This document shows positions 14,818-34,477 of a stretch of DNA of 35,026 nucleotides, in pieces. Made by a program: the position numbers and the translations under genes. Source of the stretch: Candidatus Levyibacteriota bacterium. GTDB lineage: Bacteria; Patescibacteriota; Microgenomatia; Levybacterales; UBA12049. The notes under the pieces are model-generated. The model worked only from the letters and a program-made list of their open reading frames with translations, did not search any database and was not told the DNA's origin. The DNA lies in NCBI GenBank assembly GCA_027459725.1, contig DAIDHK010000002.1, positions 169,866 to 204,891 on the forward strand, written 5' to 3'. Numbering within the stretch: position 1 is the first letter of the stretch; every line of letters starts with the position of its first letter.

Positions 14818-14891
14818 TGCTGGATCATCTAACGGTAGGATAGTGGACTCTGAATCCATTCATCTTGGTTCGAATCCAAGTCCAGCAGCCA
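14818..14891 (+). tRNA. tRNA-Gln(CUG)
   Basis: A 74-base cloverleaf. The acceptor stem is TGCTGGA/TCCAGCA with discriminator G and encoded CCA. The anticodon stem is GTGGA/TCCAT, the loop is CTCTGAA with anticodon CTG, and the T arm is CTTGG-TTCGAAT-CCAAG. The CUG anticodon reads CAG. The gene is intact although an element appears integrated at its 3' side. Confidence 0.93.
14829..14891. other. Likely attachment site inside tRNA-Gln
   Basis: The last 20 codons and the stop of the serine integrase gene are the reverse complement of the tRNA from its CCA end back to 14829. Ending an integrase gene inside the tRNA is what is expected if the tRNA is the attachment site. The exact crossover and the second copy are not visible here. 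Confidence 0.6.
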
Positions 14892-16496
14892 CTTACTATT
14901 TATTATAACTTGCTGCTGCTTTCTAAGCACAGAAAAGATTGGATTCTCGGCTATTTTCCATATTTTTCTATCCTTAACATATATCCTTTCAAAGAATAAA
15001 CGAAGGTAATGTCTTTTCAAAAAGTCAGGAGCCTCCATATAGGTTTGAAAAGTGTTGGTCGTTAACGACAAAACTTCATCAATCAATTTATAGTCTAGCT
15101 TTGATTTACGCTCCAGTTCATAAATCTGAGATTCAATTTCATTTATTTTTCCTTCAATTTCAGCTTGGGCTTCTAAAAATTTTTCTTTTGTAAGTTCTCC
15201 GTCTATTCTAAGTTCAAGAAGTCTGCTATTTTTTGTTTTTAACCCCTTTTTACGATTTTCCAATGCTTGAACTTGACCTTGAATATCGCCTTTGCTCTGT
15301 TGTAAGATCTCTTTTACCTTTGCCTTTACTAATTCAATAAATTCTGGCTTAAACTCGAATTTTTTAATATAATTAGCAACTTGTTTTTCTAGCTTTTCCG
15401 TTTCTATATAAGTGCTTTTACATCCTCCTGTTTTATTACAATGATAATAGGAAATTTCATCTCTTTTTTGGGAGTTAAGACCATAATGTTTTTCTGCAGT
15501 AAGCCTTAGATAATCTTCTTCATAAACTACTTTCTTATATCCACTAACTCTTTTTTTACCTTTATGAATAGAACAGTAGGCGATACCTCTTAAAAGGAAC
15601 GTATGCTTTCTTTCTCTGGTTAAAAATTGCCTATGTTGAGCAGATACATAATGGCATAGATCAAATAATTCTTTTGTTGTTAGAGGATTATGTTTTCCAA
15701 TTTTTTCCTGCTTTGGTTTACCCCATTTCATTAGTCCATAATAAAACGGATTGTCAATTATTGCGTTTATACTTTGTGGTGAAATAGGATCACCATTTAT
15801 AGCTACTAATCCCTTCTTGCTCATCATTCTTGCCAAAGTAGCATAAGAATAATTACCAGTTGAATAGAGATGAAACACTTCTGTTATTAAGGGTCCTGTT
15901 ATTAGGTCTACCTCAATAGGGTCTAATCTCCTTTCCAAAGCATCATATAACTTTTGCTTATCAGCAGAGTAAAACTTTTTGCTTAACTGTCCCTCTCTGT
16001 TGATGTTCACATATCCAGGAGGCGCCCATCCAGGCCACCAACTTGCATTCCAACGGCCTAACATCCCTCTTTTAGTTTTTCTACTCAAATCCCGACTGTA
16101 ATAAGCGTTTATTCCAGCCATCATAGAATCCATTAAATATCCTTCTGGACTTTCATCAATCATAGGTTGCATCATTGATACTAATTCTACACCAACTTTT
16201 TTAAGGCTTTGTTTATACAATGCGTGATCAAGTTCGTTTCTGCAAAATCTATCAGTGTGGTATACAAGTACAGCCTGAATTTTTTGTTTTCCTTCTTCGC
16301 ACTCGTTTATCATTTGAAGAAAATCTGGTCTATTGTCTGCTGTCGCACTAATGCCGTCATCAATAAAAAATTTAACGATTTTATATCCGTTTCTTTCAGC
16401 GAATTCACTTATAGCTCTTTTTTGTTGACCTATTGAATAATTTCCCTTTTGTTCCTCAGAGCTTACGCGACAATATCCGAATGCTAGTTTTAACAT
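14829..16496 (-). CDS. Large serine recombinase (integrase)
   Basis: The protein has 555 residues. An N-terminal resolvase domain has catalytic Ser12 (GYCRVSSEEQ), the DRFCR arginines and the SRKTKRG helix. The recombinase domain follows (about 165-290, GWAPPGYVN), then a zinc-ribbon region with spaced cysteines (YCSIHKGKK, YHCNKTGGC), and a long coiled coil (about 430-500) typical of serine integrases. The ATG at 16496 is preferred because it starts one strand before the catalytic Ser and lies just after the stop of the upstream gene. The C-terminus is encoded by the antisense strand of tRNA-Gln. It is probably the integrase of the element to the right. Confidence 0.93.
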   Translation of the reverse strand: MLKLAFGYCRVSSEEQKGNYSIGQQKRAISEFAERNGYKIVKFFIDDGISATADNRPDFLQMINECEEGKQKIQAVLVYHTDRFCRNELDHALYKQSLKKVGVELVSMMQPMIDESPEGYLMDSMMAGINAYYSRDLSRKTKRGMLGRWNASWWPGWAPPGYVNINREGQLSKKFYSADKQKLYDALERRLDPIEVDLITGPLITEVFHLYSTGNYSYATLARMMSKKGLVAINGDPISPQSINAIIDNPFYYGLMKWGKPKQEKIGKHNPLTTKELFDLCHYVSAQHRQFLTRERKHTFLLRGIAYCSIHKGKKRVSGYKKVVYEEDYLRLTAEKHYGLNSQKRDEISYYHCNKTGGCKSTYIETEKLEKQVANYIKKFEFKPEFIELVKAKVKEILQQSKGDIQGQVQALENRKKGLKTKNSRLLELRIDGELTKEKFLEAQAEIEGKINEIESQIYELERKSKLDYKLIDEVLSLTTNTFQTYMEAPDFLKRHYLRLFFERIYVKDRKIWKIAENPIFSVLRKQQQVIINSKWLLDLDSNQDEWIQSPLSYR

Positions 16497-16497
16497 A

Positions 16498-16746
16498 TTA
16501 TTTTTCTGTAAAGGCATTAAATGCCCACCAAAAGTCTTCGTGATTGTCATACGTGCCATCGTTATAAAAATTTGTATATTTACCCTCTTTATCTAATTGC
16601 TTTCCGTAGCTCACTTTAAGATAGACTTTTATATCCTCATCTTTGAATTTAATTGAGCGTATTTTTGTCAAAAACCCCCTTATTTTATGTGTCCTTATCA
16701 TTTGTACCTTTTTATCTTTTCTATAAATTTTTATTGTGTAATTCAT
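16498..16746 (-). CDS. Hypothetical 82-residue protein next to integrase
   Basis: A small Lys- and Tyr-rich, probably beta-rich protein ending in the aromatic NHEDFWWAFNAFTEK. No known family is recognised. Its stop is one base from the integrase ATG, so they are likely co-transcribed and translationally linked. By position it could be a directionality factor or accessory protein of the integrase, but this is only suggested by context. The ATG at 16746 is used; a start two codons earlier is possible. Confidence 0.7.
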   Translation of the reverse strand: MNYTIKIYRKDKKVQMIRTHKIRGFLTKIRSIKFKDEDIKVYLKVSYGKQLDKEGKYTNFYNDGTYDNHEDFWWAFNAFTEK

Positions 16747-16787
16747 GGTCATTCATTTTTATTTTTGGACAGGACAGCCCAACCCAA

Positions 16788-17237
16788 TTACTTGGATTGA
16801 GCTGTTTTCATTCTTAGTTTTCTTGAAGCAAGACCTCTTTTTATAGCTCTGCTCATTGCATCTTTGTATTTCTGAGTCAAACTCCATGCGAGAAATCCCA
16901 CTTCTGGAAAATCTACTTCACTTGCAAATTTGAGAGTGCCTTTATGCTTAGAAAGTTCCTGTACGACTTGATAGATTAGTAGATAATCCCTAGCGATTCT
17001 GTCAGCGCTATAAACAATTAGTGTTTCAAAGGTCTGCAACTTAATTCCTCTCAGAATTTTCTTTAGCCCTAGATTAACTTGCATACCGCTTCCTTGCTCA
17101 CAGACAATATCTACAATCTCGTATCCATTTTGTTGGGCATAGGTAACACATGCCTTGCGTTGTGCTTTAAGGGAAACAAACTTCTCTTTTTTTATGTTTG
17201 TTGCAACTCTGCAATAAATAACCGCTCTTTTGTTCAT
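16788..17237 (-). CDS. Resolvase-domain protein lacking the catalytic serine
   Basis: A 149-residue protein made only of a resolvase N-terminal domain. The motif that should read YxRVS is YCRVAT, with Ala12 at the position of the nucleophile; compare YCRVSSEEQ of the neighbouring integrase. The DRxxR pair is kept (SADRIARD), the Arg of the usual SG...RP segment is replaced (SGMQVNLGL), and there is no DNA-binding domain, recombinase domain or zinc ribbon. Strand exchange is therefore not expected. It might bind the integrase as a regulatory subunit, or be a remnant. The very strong ribosome binding site AAGGAGGTGAT, matching the 16S end over 11 bases, argues that it is expressed. Confidence 0.85.
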   Translation of the reverse strand: MNKRAVIYCRVATNIKKEKFVSLKAQRKACVTYAQQNGYEIVDIVCEQGSGMQVNLGLKKILRGIKLQTFETLIVYSADRIARDYLLIYQVVQELSKHKGTLKFASEVDFPEVGFLAWSLTQKYKDAMSRAIKRGLASRKLRMKTAQSK

Positions 17238-17271
17238 ACATTTATCACCTCCTTTTGCCAGATTTGTTGTA

Positions 17272-17481
17272 TTAACATACTGGACATTTTGGTTTTGGAT
17301 AACTTCCAGTATCTTTTAATTCACTACGAGAAATCCTATTTTCTATTCCAATAAACCCACACTTATTGCATTCAATAAAGGTCAAACCATTTTCAATTAT
17401 TCTCACACACCCATTTTTCTGAGAAAATTTCTTTTGGGTTTCACTGGGAACTCTTAAATAAACTGCTGCGTTTTTAGCCAT
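17272..17481 (-). CDS. Small zinc-ribbon protein with resolvase-like N-terminus
   Basis: The protein has 69 residues. The start (MAKNAAVYLRVPSETQKKF) copies the first strand of serine recombinases but has Pro at the catalytic position, and no resolvase domain follows. The rest is a zinc ribbon with CNKCGF and KCPVC at the very end. The ATG at 17481 is chosen because GGAGGTGA lies 8 bases before it. The C-terminal ribbon is clearly related to the next gene upstream (CSQCGWAGI and YPKSKCPLC), so the two are paralogues. Function is unknown; the recombinase resemblance may be short-range coincidence. Confidence 0.7.
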   Translation of the reverse strand: MAKNAAVYLRVPSETQKKFSQKNGCVRIIENGLTFIECNKCGFIGIENRISRSELKDTGSYPKPKCPVC

Positions 17482-17677
17482 AAAATTGTTCACCTCCGTT
17501 CTTCCATAAGTTTTGATTACATAATGGACACTTTGATTTTGGGTAGCGTTTCCGTTTTCTTATTTCTGTTTTGGAGTAGACAACAAACTTAGAGGCAATA
17601 CTTATTATTCCAGCCCAACCACACTGGCTACAAGTTGCAAAGATGAATTTTTTATTTATATCTGTTATAGTATCCAT
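17474..17677 (-). CDS. Small zinc-ribbon protein
   Basis: A 67-residue protein with one probable zinc site: CSQCGWAG and YPKSKCPLCNQN, about 30 residues apart. It shares the CxxCG(F/W)xGI ... YPK(P/S)KCPxC pattern with the downstream gene and overlaps its start by a few bases, so the two form a coupled tandem pair. There is no known family. Zinc ribbons of this size often bind nucleic acid or a protein partner. It is the first gene of the run leading to the integrase. Confidence 0.7.
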   Translation of the reverse strand: MDTITDINKKFIFATCSQCGWAGIISIASKFVVYSKTEIRKRKRYPKSKCPLCNQNLWKNGGEQFYG

Positions 17678-22758: not shown

Positions 22759-25452
22759 ATGGATAATATAAGTGAAAAAGTAACACGGAAAGAATGGATT
22801 GATGGAAAATTAAGGAAATCAGGCTGGGAAAGCATTGTTCCATACGTTGAAGGATTGGATACTTCCTCTTTTATGAATACCGCAGTTGAGGAGTATCCCA
22901 CTGAAACAGGTCCGGTTGATTACGCACTTTTTAGAAACGGGAAGATAATTGCCTTTGTTGAAGCAAAGAAAATCAATCTTTCTCCCCAAAATGTTCTCTC
23001 TCAAGCGAAGCGTTATGTAAAAGGCACAAAAGAAGGAGTACCTTTTATTTACTCCACCAATGGAGAGCTGATTTGGTTTCAAGACTTACGGATTGATAAG
23101 AGTAGGTCAAGACCAGTCAATGAATTTCATACTCCAAAGGCATTGCATGAGCTTCTCACTATGAATAGAGAAGAAAAACTGTCATGGTTTATACAAAATC
23201 CACCCGACTACACAAAGTTACGATATTACCAAAAAGATGCGATCCAAAGTATTGAACAAGCACTAGTCGACCATAAAAGGTCAATGTTGGTAGCAATGGC
23301 CACAGGCACGGGAAAAACTTTCACAGTTGCTTCCCTTATTTACCGCCTGTTGAAATCTGGAACAAGTAAAAGAATTTTATTCCTCGTTGATAGAAAAGCA
23401 CTAGCAGCTCAAACAGTTATGGAGTTTGCGAGTTATGAAGCAGAAAACGGACTCAAGTTTAATCAAATCTACCAAGTGTATAGCCAAAAATTCAAAATGG
23501 ATGATTTAGGAAGTAATGAAAAATTCGATTTCAATGTTCTTCCAACAACCTATCTTACCAACCCTGACGGAAACCAAGTTTTTGTATATATCTCAACAAT
23601 CCAACGAATGCAAATATATTTATATGGCAGAGAAGGTATGTTTTCAAAAGATGGAGATTATGACCCAGATGACGATGCAGATAAGCTGGATATTCCAATA
23701 AACGCATTTGATACGATCATTGCTGATGAATGTCATAGAGGTTATACTTCGCAGGAAGTCAGTAAATGGCGTGGAGTGCTTGACCATTTTGATGCTATAA
23801 AAATTGGACTTACTGCAACACCAGCAGCACATACCACAAGTTACTTCAAAGAGGTCATTTATCGCTATGGCTACGAACAAGCTGTGCAGGATGGATATCT
23901 AGTTGATTATGATGCGGTGAAAGTTGAATCGGGGGTACGCCTTGAAGGTATAACTCTTAAAGAAGGCGAAGAAGTAGAACAAATTGATCCGTTTAGTGGC
24001 GTGCAACAACTTGATTTACTTGAGGACGAAAGACACTTTGATGTTACGGATGTGGAAAGAAGTATTACTGCTCCTGATAGTAATAAAAAGATTATTGAAG
24101 AATTTGCAAAACACGCCTTAGAGCAGGAAAAAGAACTTGGACGCTTTCCGAAAACCCTTATATTTGCCGATAATGATTTGCCTCACATCTCCCATGCTGA
24201 TCAATTAGTTAATATCTGTCGTGATGTTTTTAATCGTGGTGATGAATTTGTAGAAAAAATTACAGGCTCTGCAACAGTTGATAGACCGCTTACCAGAATC
24301 AAAGAATTTAGGAATCGTCCCAATCCTCATATTGTTGTAACAGTAGATATGCTTTCAACTGGTGTTGATATTCCATCAATCGAGAACATTCTTTTTCTCC
24401 GTCCTGTTAAATCAAGAATCCTGTTTGAGCAAATGCTTGGGCGTGGTACAAGGTTATGTTTTAATTTTCCCAATGGACTCGGTACTGCTGCTAAAACTCA
24501 CTTTACTGTTTTTGACTGTTTTGGAGGGACACTTCTTGAGGCATTTAAGAATAAAACGAGTATTACTCAGGTTACTCCTTTGACACCAACGAGGAAAATA
24601 GAACAGGTCATTGAAGACATAAATAACAATATAGATGTTGAATATAACGCAAGGTGTTTAATTAAAAGATTACAACGAATTGCAAAGAATGTAACATCAG
24701 AAGGGAGAGAGCAATTCGCTAAGTTTTTTGAAAATGGTGATCTCGCTCAATTTGCTAGATCGCTTCCTGACGAGTTGTCAGGCAATCGTGTTAACACATT
24801 ACAACTTCTTGCAGACCCAAAGTTTATCGATTTATTAAATAACTATCCACGACCACCAAAAAGATTTATTCGAGCAATAGAGCAAGAAGATACTGTTACT
24901 TCTGAGTATATTTTCAGAACTACCGATGGCAGAGAATTAAAGCCAGACGATTACATTGCCCAATTTGAAAAGTTTGTTAAAGAAAACCCAGATCACATAG
25001 AAGCAATAGCAATCGTTCTACAAAAACCTGCTGGATGGGGTACAGATGCATTAAGGGAGTTGCGCACTTCTCTTAAAGATAGACCAGAACGATATACAGA
25101 AGAAAATCTAAGGAAAGCATATAAATATCCTCTTGCCGATATTATCTCGATGATTAAGCACGCTGCGAAAGAAGAACCAATGCTTTCAACAAAAGAGCGT
25201 ATTGATCTTGCAATAGAGAAAGTAACAGAAGGAAAGAAACTTACTGATAAACAACATGAATGGATTGAGTTAATTAAAAAACATTTAATTGAAAACCTAA
25301 CTATTGATGCAAATGACTTTGACATCATGCCTATTTTTGTAGATAGAGGTGGAAGTTTCAAAAAGATAAATGAGGATTTCGATAACAATCTCATGGCACT
25401 TATTCAAAATATAAATACTGCGATACCACAAGTCTATGGTTACACAAACTAA
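22759..25452 (+). CDS. hsdR: Type I restriction enzyme, R subunit
   Basis: Translocating endonuclease subunit of 897 residues. The N-terminal PD-(D/E)xK nuclease is visible as VDYALF (Asp54) and FVEAKK (Glu68, Lys70). The SF2 helicase has Walker A (ATGTGKT, about residue 183) and the DEAD box as DECH (about 322), plus the QMLGRGTR motif VI. The C-terminal EcoEI-type domain contacts the methylase. Length and motifs are complete, so it should be active. The leader is about 38 bases with no good Shine-Dalgarno sequence. The end overlaps hsdM by 17 bases. Confidence 0.96.
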   Translation: MDNISEKVTRKEWIDGKLRKSGWESIVPYVEGLDTSSFMNTAVEEYPTETGPVDYALFRNGKIIAFVEAKKINLSPQNVLSQAKRYVKGTKEGVPFIYSTNGELIWFQDLRIDKSRSRPVNEFHTPKALHELLTMNREEKLSWFIQNPPDYTKLRYYQKDAIQSIEQALVDHKRSMLVAMATGTGKTFTVASLIYRLLKSGTSKRILFLVDRKALAAQTVMEFASYEAENGLKFNQIYQVYSQKFKMDDLGSNEKFDFNVLPTTYLTNPDGNQVFVYISTIQRMQIYLYGREGMFSKDGDYDPDDDADKLDIPINAFDTIIADECHRGYTSQEVSKWRGVLDHFDAIKIGLTATPAAHTTSYFKEVIYRYGYEQAVQDGYLVDYDAVKVESGVRLEGITLKEGEEVEQIDPFSGVQQLDLLEDERHFDVTDVERSITAPDSNKKIIEEFAKHALEQEKELGRFPKTLIFADNDLPHISHADQLVNICRDVFNRGDEFVEKITGSATVDRPLTRIKEFRNRPNPHIVVTVDMLSTGVDIPSIENILFLRPVKSRILFEQMLGRGTRLCFNFPNGLGTAAKTHFTVFDCFGGTLLEAFKNKTSITQVTPLTPTRKIEQVIEDINNNIDVEYNARCLIKRLQRIAKNVTSEGREQFAKFFENGDLAQFARSLPDELSGNRVNTLQLLADPKFIDLLNNYPRPPKRFIRAIEQEDTVTSEYIFRTTDGRELKPDDYIAQFEKFVKENPDHIEAIAIVLQKPAGWGTDALRELRTSLKDRPERYTEENLRKAYKYPLADIISMIKHAAKEEPMLSTKERIDLAIEKVTEGKKLTDKQHEWIELIKKHLIENLTIDANDFDIMPIFVDRGGSFKKINEDFDNNLMALIQNINTAIPQVYGYTN

Positions 25453-26860
25453 CATTGTTAATAAATTATGGGGGTTTTGCCACGTCCTACGCCATGATGG
25501 AATGGATTATGGTGATTACGTGGAGCAACTTACTTATTTGTTGTTTCTTAAAATGATTGAGGAAAAAGGTGCAGTAATTCCAAAAGAATACTCTTGGGAT
25601 GTTCTAAAATCAAAATCAGGTACGGAGCTAATTGATTTTTATTCAGAGCTATTGCGAGGTTTAGCAAAACAAGAAGGGTTACTTGGTGCAATTTTCTCTG
25701 AGGCATTATCAAAATTCACAAAGCCTGTAAATCTTAAAAGACTTATTGATCTCATTGATGAAATAGATTGGTCAGGACTTGGTATTGATGTAAAGGCACA
25801 AGCATACGAAGGCTTACTAGAAAAGTCTGCAGCCGAAGGCAAAAAAGGCGCTGGACAATTCTTTACACCTCGTATTCTTATCCAGTCCATAGTCAATGTT
25901 ATGAAACCTGATCCAAGGGTGTCAAAAGATTTTGCTATTACTGACCCTGCTGCTGGTACAGGTGGTTTTCTTCTTTCAGCTTACGAATGGTTCTTGCAAC
26001 AAACTGGGGATGCAATCAATCGTGATGACTTAGAGCGCATAAAGAAAAATACTTACTTTGGTACAGAGTTGGTGGCAAGACCTCGAAGGCTTGCTCTTAT
26101 GAATCTCTATCTACATGGTATTACTGCAAATATCCGCCTTGGAGATAGTATTTACGAACCAGATCATGGTGATAGATACGATGTTGTTTTGACTAATCCT
26201 CCATTTGGTACAAAAGGAGCAAATCAAATACCAGAAAGACAGGATTTTACTGTTGGAACAAGTAACAAGCAGCTTAATTTTATCCAGCATATTCTAACTA
26301 TTCTCAAGCCAGGAGGTCGTGCAGCAGTTGTTTTACCTGATAATGTGTTATTTGGTGATCAGGCAGGAGAAGTTTTCAAAATCCTTATGCAGGATTGCAA
26401 CTTACATACAATTCTAAGACTTCCTAATGGTACGTTTACTCCATATAGCCAAGGAGTTAAGGCAAATGTTGTATTTTTTACCAAAGGTATTTCTACAGAG
26501 AATGTATGGATTTATGATGCTCGTACCAATGTGCCAGGTATAACCAAAAATGATAGACCGCTTACTCATAAACATTTTGAGGAATTTGAAAAATGTTATG
26601 GAGAAAATGCTAACGGACAATCTTCTAGGAAAGAAAGCGAGTCCAAAGAAAATAGATGGAAAATGTTTACCATAAAACAAGTAAAAGATAAAAATTATAA
26701 ACTTGATAGTTTTAAGTGGTTAAAAGATGATGATATAGAAAATGGCGAAGAAATTGGTGAGCCTGAGGAGTTAATAACAGATGCGTTATCTGAGCTAAAG
26801 GAAGCAACAAATAGCTTGGAAAAAATATATGCAGAACTTGAAAATGGAACTGACAAATAA
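25436..26860 (+). CDS. hsdM: Type I restriction-modification methylase, M subunit
   Basis: N6-adenine methylase subunit of 474 residues. It has the N-terminal HsdM helical domain (about 5-130), SAM-binding motif I (DPAAGTGGF, near 170) and catalytic motif IV (NPPFG, near 255). The QFFTPR segment before motif I is the family signature. The C-terminal helices (ELKEATNSLEKIYAEL) are those that bind the S subunit. The ATG lies inside the end of hsdR and its own end overlaps the start of hsdS, so the three are translationally coupled. Confidence 0.96.
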   Translation: MVTQTNIVNKLWGFCHVLRHDGMDYGDYVEQLTYLLFLKMIEEKGAVIPKEYSWDVLKSKSGTELIDFYSELLRGLAKQEGLLGAIFSEALSKFTKPVNLKRLIDLIDEIDWSGLGIDVKAQAYEGLLEKSAAEGKKGAGQFFTPRILIQSIVNVMKPDPRVSKDFAITDPAAGTGGFLLSAYEWFLQQTGDAINRDDLERIKKNTYFGTELVARPRRLALMNLYLHGITANIRLGDSIYEPDHGDRYDVVLTNPPFGTKGANQIPERQDFTVGTSNKQLNFIQHILTILKPGGRAAVVLPDNVLFGDQAGEVFKILMQDCNLHTILRLPNGTFTPYSQGVKANVVFFTKGISTENVWIYDARTNVPGITKNDRPLTHKHFEEFEKCYGENANGQSSRKESESKENRWKMFTIKQVKDKNYKLDSFKWLKDDDIENGEEIGEPEELITDALSELKEATNSLEKIYAELENGTDK

Positions 26861-28127
26861 TGAATCTTCTGAGAAGGTAGAATATCTTCTAAAAGACTGC
26901 GTGGATATTCTGGACAATCAAAGAATCCCTGTGAATTCGGAAGAAAGAAATAAAAGAGTAGGTAATGTTCCTTACTATGGCGCAACAGGACAAGTTGGGT
27001 TAATAGATGACTATATTTTTGATGAAGAGTTAGTTCTGTTGGGTGAAGACGGCGCTCCTTTTCTAGATAAATCAAAACCTATTGCATATATTGTTACTGG
27101 TAAAAGTTGGGTAAACAATCATGCACATGTTTTAAGGGCAAAGAAAGGTATTGCAAACAATCGGTTTATAAAATACTACCTTGATTACTTCGATTATTCT
27201 GATTCTGTAGCCGGAACAACAAGGTTAAAGTTAACACAGTCATCTATGCGTAATATCCCAATAAGATTGCCTTCTTTATCTATACAAGAGAAAGTAGCAA
27301 TGGAAATACAAAACATTATTAGCAATGGTGACGAAGCAAAACAAAAGATACAAAAAGCAAAAAAAATAGTTTCAAAATTCCGTCAAGCAATTCTGACTGC
27401 TGCGGTTACAGGAAAACTTACCGATAATTGGCGAATAGAGAATATACCCATATTTAAAAAGTCTAAATTTTCAGGTAAAAAATTTGATATTGAAGTGTCT
27501 GAAAACACAGATTTATTTGACATACCTGAATCTTGGAAATGGGAGGCAATAGGTAATTATGCAGATATAATTGATCCACAACCAAGCCATAGAACACCTC
27601 CATCTGCTAACGAGGGAGTACCATACATTGGTATGGGAGATATCAATTCTGATGGTTCTATTAACTTCGAGGAATCCAGAAAAGTTTCAGTAGATATTTT
27701 GCAAGAACATAATAAAAGATATCAATTAAAATTGGGAGATTTCATTTTTGGGAAAATTGGAACATTAGGCAAGCCTGTTTTGATCCCTGTCAATCAAAAA
27801 TATACATTATCCGCAAATGTTGTTCTTGTTCAATCAAATCCTTCGTTAATTATTTCTCAATATCTATATTTTTACCTTTCAAGTAAATTAGTAGAGAAAA
27901 TCTTACTAATTGACAGTAGGGCAACATCCCAACCAGCATTTGGTATTAAAAGGTTAAGAACATTTCCGTTACCACTACCCTCGATTGAAGAACAAGAGGA
28001 AATAGTTAAAAGAGTTAATGCATATTTTGAAGTGGTAACTCAGATTGAATATCAAATCAAGAAAGCAGAAGCGAAAGTATCAAAACTTACTCAAGCAATT
28101 TTGGCAAAAACATTCAAGAATAACTAA
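26829..28127 (+). CDS. hsdS: Type I restriction-modification specificity subunit
   Basis: DNA-recognition subunit of 432 residues. Two target-recognition domains are seen: the first from VEYLLKDCVDILD with VPYYGATGQVG, the second from PESWKWEAIGNYADII with VPYIGMGDIN. Each ends in a coiled-coil conserved region (AKKIVSKFRQAILTAAVTGKL and AEAKVSKLTQAILAKTF). Thus it reads a bipartite site, which cannot be predicted by eye. It overlaps hsdM by 32 bases; an ATG at 26844 is an alternative start. Both halves are intact, so the system is probably functional. Confidence 0.94.
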   Translation: MQNLKMELTNNESSEKVEYLLKDCVDILDNQRIPVNSEERNKRVGNVPYYGATGQVGLIDDYIFDEELVLLGEDGAPFLDKSKPIAYIVTGKSWVNNHAHVLRAKKGIANNRFIKYYLDYFDYSDSVAGTTRLKLTQSSMRNIPIRLPSLSIQEKVAMEIQNIISNGDEAKQKIQKAKKIVSKFRQAILTAAVTGKLTDNWRIENIPIFKKSKFSGKKFDIEVSENTDLFDIPESWKWEAIGNYADIIDPQPSHRTPPSANEGVPYIGMGDINSDGSINFEESRKVSVDILQEHNKRYQLKLGDFIFGKIGTLGKPVLIPVNQKYTLSANVVLVQSNPSLIISQYLYFYLSSKLVEKILLIDSRATSQPAFGIKRLRTFPLPLPSIEEQEEIVKRVNAYFEVVTQIEYQIKKAEAKVSKLTQAILAKTFKNN

Positions 28128-32840: not shown

Positions 32841-33026
32841 ATGGACGAGATTGATATTGAGAAAGCGAAAGTAATTCTAGGAGATATAGCAAAAAAGATG
32901 AACGATGACCAATTAAAAGATACATGTGTGGAAGCACAATATCTTGTTGAATCATGGCTGGATGATTATGAACGCTCAATCTTTGAAGGCAAAACCTTAC
33001 GAGAATTATTAGGAGAAAGTATATGA
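32841..33026 (+). CDS. Small acidic protein coupled to serine recombinase
   Basis: A 61-residue acidic, helical protein (MDEIDIEKAKVILGDIAKKM). Its stop overlaps the ATG of the recombinase gene (ATGA), so the two are translationally coupled. There is no known family. An accessory or directionality role for the recombinase is possible. There is no visible Shine-Dalgarno sequence for its own start. Confidence 0.75.
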   Translation: MDEIDIEKAKVILGDIAKKMNDDQLKDTCVEAQYLVESWLDDYERSIFEGKTLRELLGESI

Positions 33027-34477
33027 GAAGTATTCATAAACGAGCTGTACTTTATCTTCGAGTTTCGACAGAAGAACAACTTGATAATTTCTCGCTAGCA
33101 ACACAGGAAAACATTTGTAGAAAGGAGGCTGATAAGCGTGGATACTCCATTGAGAAAATTTTTAAGGAAGAAGGTAAATCAGCAAAGACTATTGCTGGCA
33201 GACCTACACTCATAAAATTACTTGAGTATTGCCGTAAAAATAAAAGAAGAATAGGAGCGTTAATTGTCTACCGACTGGACAGATTATCAAGACAAACTGG
33301 CGACTATCTAGCAATTAGAAAAAAGCTAACTGATATTGGCATTACCATAATTTCAACTGCTGAACCAACAGGAGAATCCCCTACAGAAAAGCTTATTGAA
33401 ACTATTTTGGCTGGCTTTGCTCAACTCGATAATGATATTAGAGCCGAAAGATCAAGAAATGGTATGTACACAAGGTTTATGTCGGGTCTGCCAAATGGCA
33501 ATCCTCCGCCTGGCTACTTGATGGTAAATGGCTATGTAGTAAAAGATGTGAATATCTTCGATCAGCTTAAAAAAGCATGGGATATTATGGCAACAGGTAC
33601 AAAAAGCTCAAGAGAAATGGCAGAGATATTAGACAGCTACAGACTTAAAAGTGGAAAAACAGGCAGGATATACAAATTCACCAAAAAAAATATCTTTCGG
33701 ATTTTTAGAAATAAGTATTATATGGGTGTCATTGTTTCAAAAACCTACCAAAAAGAAGTGCTAGCACAACATGTGCCGATGGTGAGTAAAGAATTGTTCG
33801 ATAAGGTACAAGAAATTGTTGATGGAAGAAATCATAATAAAGCTGAGATTGTCTTACGGAATAGGAATAATGAAGATTTTCCCTTACGCAGATTTGTTAA
33901 GTGCAAAAAGTGTAACCTTGCTTTCTCAGGCAGTTGGAGTAGAGGCAGAGGCGGAAGATATGCCTACTATCATTGTAGGGCAAGATGCAAAAACGCCAAT
34001 GTTAAAATAATGGATATGCACACATCTTTTACTAAGCTTCTTAAAGCAAAGGTAGTAGCACAAGAATATACGGCTTTTTATATGTCTTTTTTTGAAAGCA
34101 TGTACGAGAAAAGACTGACGAGAATAAAACAAAAACAAATACGGACAGCTTCGCAAATTCATAAATTGAGAGATTTACGACAAACACTCATTGAAAAGAA
34201 TCTCTCTGGTATTTATTCAGATGCGGATTTCAAAGAACAGCTAGGCTTGATTGAAGAACAGTTACAAAATATGGCAATCATCAGTAAAGAAGCCTCTCTA
34301 AACAAGTACGCAAAAGACAATGCAAAAGCGTATATCGAGAAGATAGTAACTGATTTACCCAAAGCATACGAGGCATGTGATATTAGGCAGAAGCGTACTC
34401 TCATTAGCCTACTATTTCCTAGAGGCTTAATCTGGAATTATCCAGGGTTAACTGTTAGAAATGAAAATAGCTCATAG
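33023..34477 (+). CDS. Large serine recombinase
   Basis: The protein has 484 residues. The resolvase domain has the catalytic Ser15 (YLRVSTEEQ), DRLSR and the RAERSRNGM helix. The recombinase domain includes NPPPGY and a NKYYMG segment. The zinc ribbon has CKKCNLAFSG and YHCRARC, followed by a coiled coil. All key residues are intact, unlike the resolvase-domain protein at 16788. AGGAGA lies 7 bases before the ATG. It points out of the element toward the right. It is a different lineage from the integrase at the tRNA, so two insertion events or a composite element are likely. Confidence 0.93.
   Translation: MRSIHKRAVLYLRVSTEEQLDNFSLATQENICRKEADKRGYSIEKIFKEEGKSAKTIAGRPTLIKLLEYCRKNKRRIGALIVYRLDRLSRQTGDYLAIRKKLTDIGITIISTAEPTGESPTEKLIETILAGFAQLDNDIRAERSRNGMYTRFMSGLPNGNPPPGYLMVNGYVVKDVNIFDQLKKAWDIMATGTKSSREMAEILDSYRLKSGKTGRIYKFTKKNIFRIFRNKYYMGVIVSKTYQKEVLAQHVPMVSKELFDKVQEIVDGRNHNKAEIVLRNRNNEDFPLRRFVKCKKCNLAFSGSWSRGRGGRYAYYHCRARCKNANVKIMDMHTSFTKLLKAKVVAQEYTAFYMSFFESMYEKRLTRIKQKQIRTASQIHKLRDLRQTLIEKNLSGIYSDADFKEQLGLIEEQLQNMAIISKEASLNKYAKDNAKAYIEKIVTDLPKAYEACDIRQKRTLISLLFPRGLIWNYPGLTVRNENSS

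Follow-up and report, generated by a model that had tools for sequence, protein, structure and literature searches.

The window analysed here, a 35,026-nucleotide stretch of a Candidatus Levyibacteriota genome, encodes a serine-recombinase catalytic domain that lacks the nucleophilic serine, hereafter called the pseudo-resolvase, and a large serine integrase that lies downstream of it on the same strand (Table 1). The genome carrying the window is 1.5 Mb in size, and those sampled from the phylum are 0.3–2.0 Mb. Upstream of the integrase, and on its strand, are an ORF of 84 amino acids, the 149-amino-acid ORF of the pseudo-resolvase, two zinc-ribbon ORFs, and DnaC-like and O-like replication genes. 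The preliminary description placed the pseudo-resolvase directly beside an active integrase. A Ser-bearing integrase is indeed encoded on the same strand, but the two genes are not immediately adjacent because the 84-amino-acid ORF intervenes, and the likely start of the integrase at 16496 abuts the stop of this ORF.

The integrase reading frame ends within the tRNA-Gln gene, which means that the last integrase residues are tRNA-encoded. tRNA genes are typical attachment sites for integrase elements. A second copy of the tRNA-Gln 3' end, which would delimit the element, was found neither in the window nor in the genome. The Ser-bearing integrase on the far side of the window belongs to a clade different from that of the tRNA-side integrase. 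In the zinc-ribbon ORF directly upstream of the pseudo-resolvase, the N-terminus AAVYLRVPSETQ recalls the beta-1/nucleophile motif of resolvases, except that Pro occupies the place of the nucleophile; this likeness may be due to chance or may represent a fused relic.

Table 1. Positions of the pseudo-resolvase gene and the surrounding features in the window
Feature	Position	Strand	Remarks
Pseudo-resolvase, 149 aa	16788-17237	-	Serine-recombinase catalytic domain and helix E; Ala12 replaces the nucleophilic Ser
Shine-Dalgarno sequence AAAGGAGGTGAT of the pseudo-resolvase	17244-17255	-	12-base match; 6-nt spacer to ATG
84-aa ORF in the pseudo-resolvase/integrase interval	16498-16752	-	Candidate directionality factor
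Large serine integrase	14829-16559	-	Catalytic Ser intact, YCRVSSEEQ; likely real start 16496
tRNA-Gln (CTG)	14818-14891	+	Probable attachment site of the element
Small zinc-ribbon ORF directly upstream of the pseudo-resolvase	17272-17478	-	Probably same operon
Second small zinc-ribbon-like ORF	17474-17677	-	–
Type I restriction-modification system (R, M, S)	22759-28127	+	Beside the element's replication genes
Second large serine integrase, Ser-bearing	33023-34477	+	Far side of the window

Catalytic domain of the pseudo-resolvase

The 149-amino-acid product, which starts MNKRAVIYCRVATNIKK, matched PF00239 with an E-value of 1.1e-15 over profile positions 1–105 of 145, exceeding the gathering cut-off. 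Three claims made earlier about this protein were borne out. In the alignment with the neighbouring integrase, YCRVAT is opposite YCRVSS, which places Ala at position 12; the DRxxR residues are retained as DRIAR; and the C-terminal domains are missing, PF00239 being the only domain found and the ORF ending after helix E. Among the phosphate-contacting active-site arginines of the window copy, Arg10, Arg80, and Arg83 are present and the equivalent of resolvase Arg45 is missing. Helix E is homologous to that of the neighbouring integrase (YKDAMSRAIKRGL versus YSRDLSRKTKRGM). A domain search found no helix–turn–helix or other DNA-binding domain in the 149 amino acids.

The structure predicted with AlphaFold has the resolvase topology (pLDDT 80, pTM 0.67), with a predicted helix at residues 112–147, and matches serine recombinases in the PDB. 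The best solved relative was the N-domain of TP901-1 integrase (3bvp; sequence E-value, 2.7e-7; fold TM, 0.71–0.77), and IS607-type TnpA was also among the best. Thus, the pseudo-resolvase shares with the large serine integrases (TP901-1, Bxb1, phiC31; PF00239) the fold, Tyr8, Arg10, Gln26, Arg80, Arg83, and helix E, but differs from them in having Ala for the nucleophilic Ser and in lacking the recombinase, zinc-ribbon, and coiled-coil domains. The catalytic domains of IS607-family TnpA and the YneB-like resolvases matched weakly in sequence and fold, with scores below the curated cut-offs (44.7 vs 175 and 42.6 vs 110 bits), and IS607 TnpA has a DNA-binding domain of its own (PMC6188088). In phiC31 Int, the S12A variant is inactive (PMC5737554). 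Because the protein is by descent a member of the serine recombinase superfamily, yet fails the defining catalytic feature, we classed it as an integrase-linked pseudoenzyme variant. The window copy is strongly divergent (32% at best; end branch, 1.64), and this divergence, together with the missing Arg45 equivalent, means that it could be further along in function loss than its relatives.

The start codon is preceded by a strong Shine-Dalgarno sequence, as had been noted, although the match spans 12 bases rather than the 11 first given and is therefore slightly better. The matches at the starts of the integrase and the 84-amino-acid ORF are three bases each.

Relatives in other bacteria and their linkage to integrases

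Single-sequence searches of 60 relatives and 374 genomes of the class found no stand-alone homologues, the matches being full-length Ser integrases or fragments, and single-sequence scans of genome_contigs and viral_contigs also found no relatives of the 149-amino-acid protein. A 151-amino-acid YCRVAT protein was found in a gut phage scaffold (L022), 14 nt behind an integrase. An Ala-specific search, in which DNA was scanned for a pattern encoding IYCRVA at the normal spacing, identified L054 (Lachnospiraceae), L059 (Bosea), and L066 (an alphaproteobacterium), all beside an integrase; the other matches were mostly due to chance, as were the IMG/VR pattern matches L050 and L051. Protein searches around the genomes of the members found in this way yielded 11 further members. 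When a 14-member profile was compared with 287 genomes of the phylum, four further loci were detected in three genomes (L204, L205, L206, and L208), and all of these proteins from the window's own phylum had Ala and were encoded upstream of, and on the same strand as, a Ser integrase. Several other candidates were rejected: L103 contained no recognisable resolvase ORF, both tandem recombinases of the Streptococcus phi-m46.1-type phages retain Ser, the 'recombinase small subunit' of AcaML1 is not resolvase-like, and the Acetobacter plasmid matches were ordinary Ser recombinases with longer ORFs.

None of the 20 intact catalytic-domain-only proteins, i.e., the window copy and 19 relatives from the same phylum, Clostridia, and Alphaproteobacteria, had Ser at the nucleophile position. 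Ala occurred in 18 of them (17 of the 19 relatives) and Asp in two. The preliminary description had held that homologues with Ser would indicate a recent point mutation; with the nucleophile lost in 20 of 20, such a mutation is not the general explanation. Four of these proteins were the window copy and the three obtained with the Ala-specific pattern, whereas the remaining 16 came from searches that placed no condition on the nucleophile residue, and these comprised 14 with Ala, two with Asp, and none with Ser. Meanwhile, Ser was present in all 126 full-length integrases (ORFs of ≥400 amino acids in which the position was readable). Small Ser-bearing ORFs, checked for a C-terminal half, proved to be contig-edge cases, integrases broken by a frameshift or insertion, or complete recombinases of ~190–260 amino acids, a sorting that leaves aside the less clear cases L211 and L121. 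The remaining active-site residues were mostly retained among the 20 proteins (Tyr8, 20/20; Arg10, 19/20; Gln26, 18/20; the Arg45 equivalent, 19/20; Arg80, 17/20; Arg83, 20/20), a pattern that indicates selective nucleophile loss instead of decay. A shift of the nucleophile to a neighbouring Thr or Ser was rejected because the next residue varies among the copies (T, S, N, Q, Y, A, or G). The two members with Asp are Clostridial (L191:2303-2671 and L194:2235-2582).

The expectation that the protein always occurs beside an integrase held for 16 of the 20 proteins, which were encoded on the same strand as a large serine integrase and within about 0.7 kb of it, but not for the other four. Among the latter, L179 lies at a contig end, and L181, L182, and L184 had no integrase within about 5–7 kb, 7–14 kb of DNA being examined around these four loci. 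The integrase was overlapped or was ≤63 nt away in L059, L066, L177, L180, L185, L189, and L208, and the spacing was similarly close in L022, L054, and L087. An odd C-terminal tail is common to L181 and L182. Two alphaproteobacterial pseudo-resolvases with no nearby integrase (L214:7267-7734 and L215:7619-8086) both carry the conserved C-terminal tail SFWNSLPWFTKLKFWIFGRL, and perhaps have a different function. Both gut modules of integrase and pseudo-resolvase (L054:5972-6604 and L022:1496-2110) adjoin a truncated TndX-type recombinase gene, and the two truncations fall at almost identical positions, which could mean that the target site lay within a recombinase gene.

In a phylogenetic tree of 67 catalytic domains, constructed with the nucleophile position masked, the pseudo-resolvases required about 7–9 label changes, at least four of which were forced by well-supported branches. 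A single pseudo-resolvase clade was rejected (AU p = 9e-5), and a single clade for the five pseudo-resolvases of the phylum was weakly rejected (p = 0.04). The L208 and L059 proteins grouped with the domains of their own neighbouring integrases with modest support (96/78 and 81/58, respectively); the window copy was placed without support, and long branches limit the inference of origins. The natural reading of these sequences is that the catalytic domain was repeatedly duplicated and then lost its Ser. The repeated emergence of nucleophile-less copies in bacteria that are not related to one another, in most cases next to a working integrase, suggests an undescribed control of mobile DNA. No description of natural nucleophile-less serine-recombinase partners was found in the literature searched, which was largely without subscription papers and preprints.

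Possible roles beside the integrase

The prevailing view is that serine integrases require no partner other than a directionality factor, and such factors are hard to find because they have no common sequence. Regulation of an integrase by a dead copy of its own catalytic domain would, if confirmed, amount to a new principle in the control of mobile elements, one that can be recognised from the sequence, and would also provide ready-made off-switches for the integrases used in genome engineering. The independent, repeated loss of the same residue makes the regulation hypothesis directly testable.

The dead active site, the strong Shine-Dalgarno sequence, and the linkage favour a regulator of the neighbouring integrase, and because it has no DNA-binding domain, the protein most likely acts via protein contact. 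We give roughly even credence to the reading that it is a pseudoenzyme regulating its integrase by direct contact, with restraint likelier than the setting of direction. The idea proposed at the outset, that a dead subunit poisons or steers integrase tetramers, is plausible. The pseudo-resolvase would be made in excess and would bind the integrase of its own element at the catalytic domain, thereby determining whether integrase dimers or tetramers form and become able to cleave. In the favoured version, i.e., restraint, mixed complexes would be unable to cut all strands, which would keep the integrase inactive once integration is complete, or until the action of an excision factor, for which the 84-amino-acid protein is a possible candidate; the replacement of Ser by Ala would render the free catalytic domain safe. 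Contact via helix E cannot hold for all members because several Clostridial members end before this helix. For the class as a whole, we tentatively propose that these proteins are recurrent, convergently evolved integrase partners, each of which may hetero-oligomerise with its cognate large serine integrase and thereby switch or gate recombination.

It is unlikely that the pseudo-resolvase is the recombination directionality factor (RDF) of the element, which would bind the integrase and activate attL × attR excision. RDFs activate attL × attR and inhibit attP × attB recombination, and to our knowledge none of them is a recombinase domain. The gene does sit in the integrase operon and, like phiC31 gp3 and Bxb1 gp47, encodes a small protein that is thought to act on the serine integrase encoded with it. 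Known RDFs are very diverse and hard to identify, bind the integrase directly, and include unrelated proteins such as gp3 and gp47 (PMC5737554). However, gp3 is reported to bind the zinc domain of phiC31 integrase, not its catalytic domain (PMC5814800). The 84-amino-acid ORF also argues against this role. An ORF with 67% identity to it lies directly before the integrase in the related genome G004, in an element without a pseudo-resolvase, and homologues also occur in G018 (41%) and, weakly, in G005. Absence from related elements, which the preliminary description had counted against its own proposal, was thus observed in part: the closest related element, L220, which is of the same family, contains the 84-amino-acid gene and the integrase but no pseudo-resolvase. 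The pseudo-resolvase is therefore an optional accessory that lacks the consistent association with an integrase type expected of an RDF, and the 84-amino-acid gene, which accompanies the integrase where the pseudo-resolvase is absent, is the better candidate for the directionality factor. In L204, L205, and L206, small ORFs likewise lie between the pseudo-resolvase and the integrase, one of them with a helix–turn–helix that looks excisionase-like by eye.

Similarly doubtful is a role as an activating or architectural subunit, comparable to the accessory-site subunits of Tn3 or gamma-delta resolvase, in which the protein would join the synapse by docking on the catalytic domain of the integrase but would itself cut nothing. 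The likeness to the accessory-site subunits of Tn3, gamma-delta, and Sin is that non-cutting subunits control cutting ones via the catalytic domain, and the inactive S10A catalytic domain of Tn3 resolvase is functional at the accessory positions (sites II and III), although not at the crossover site (PMC9943657). The pseudo-resolvases have also kept the fold and the active-site arginines, and the members without helix E leave other faces for contact. Nevertheless, the known accessory subunits are ordinary active resolvases with DNA-binding domains, whereas the pseudo-resolvase is a separate gene product, dead by sequence, with no such domain for its placement at an accessory site. Furthermore, the well-studied large serine integrases are not known to need a partner of this kind.

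The probability that the protein is a decaying fragment of a duplicated integrase appears low. The two members that group with their neighbours' domains do so as tandem duplication would predict, and the window copy has lost the Arg45 equivalent. The pseudo-resolvases also evolve faster than the integrases, the dN for L177/L180 being about 0.4 and that of their integrases 0.16. However, the reading frames are open, and in the two pairs of relatives compared (L177/L180 and L181/L182, the window copy not being included), dN was about 0.4 and dS, which is near saturation, was 1.3–2.4, giving a dN/dS of about 0.2–0.3; this is well below 1 and indicates protein-level constraint in both pairs. The same single residue was lost each time while the rest of the active site was kept, the truncations lie near the same domain border, and the Shine-Dalgarno sequence is near-perfect. 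In contrast, Ser is retained in the true fragments encountered here, and those that arose by frameshift are still followed by the C-terminal half, whereas in the window no C-terminal half precedes the separate integrase.

An action on the integrases of other elements, as immunity or the exclusion of competitors, is very improbable: the genome has at least five further loci for large serine integrases, and a dead catalytic domain could also meet the catalytic domains of foreign integrases, but nothing observed points to a foreign target, and the class is tightly linked to a neighbouring integrase.
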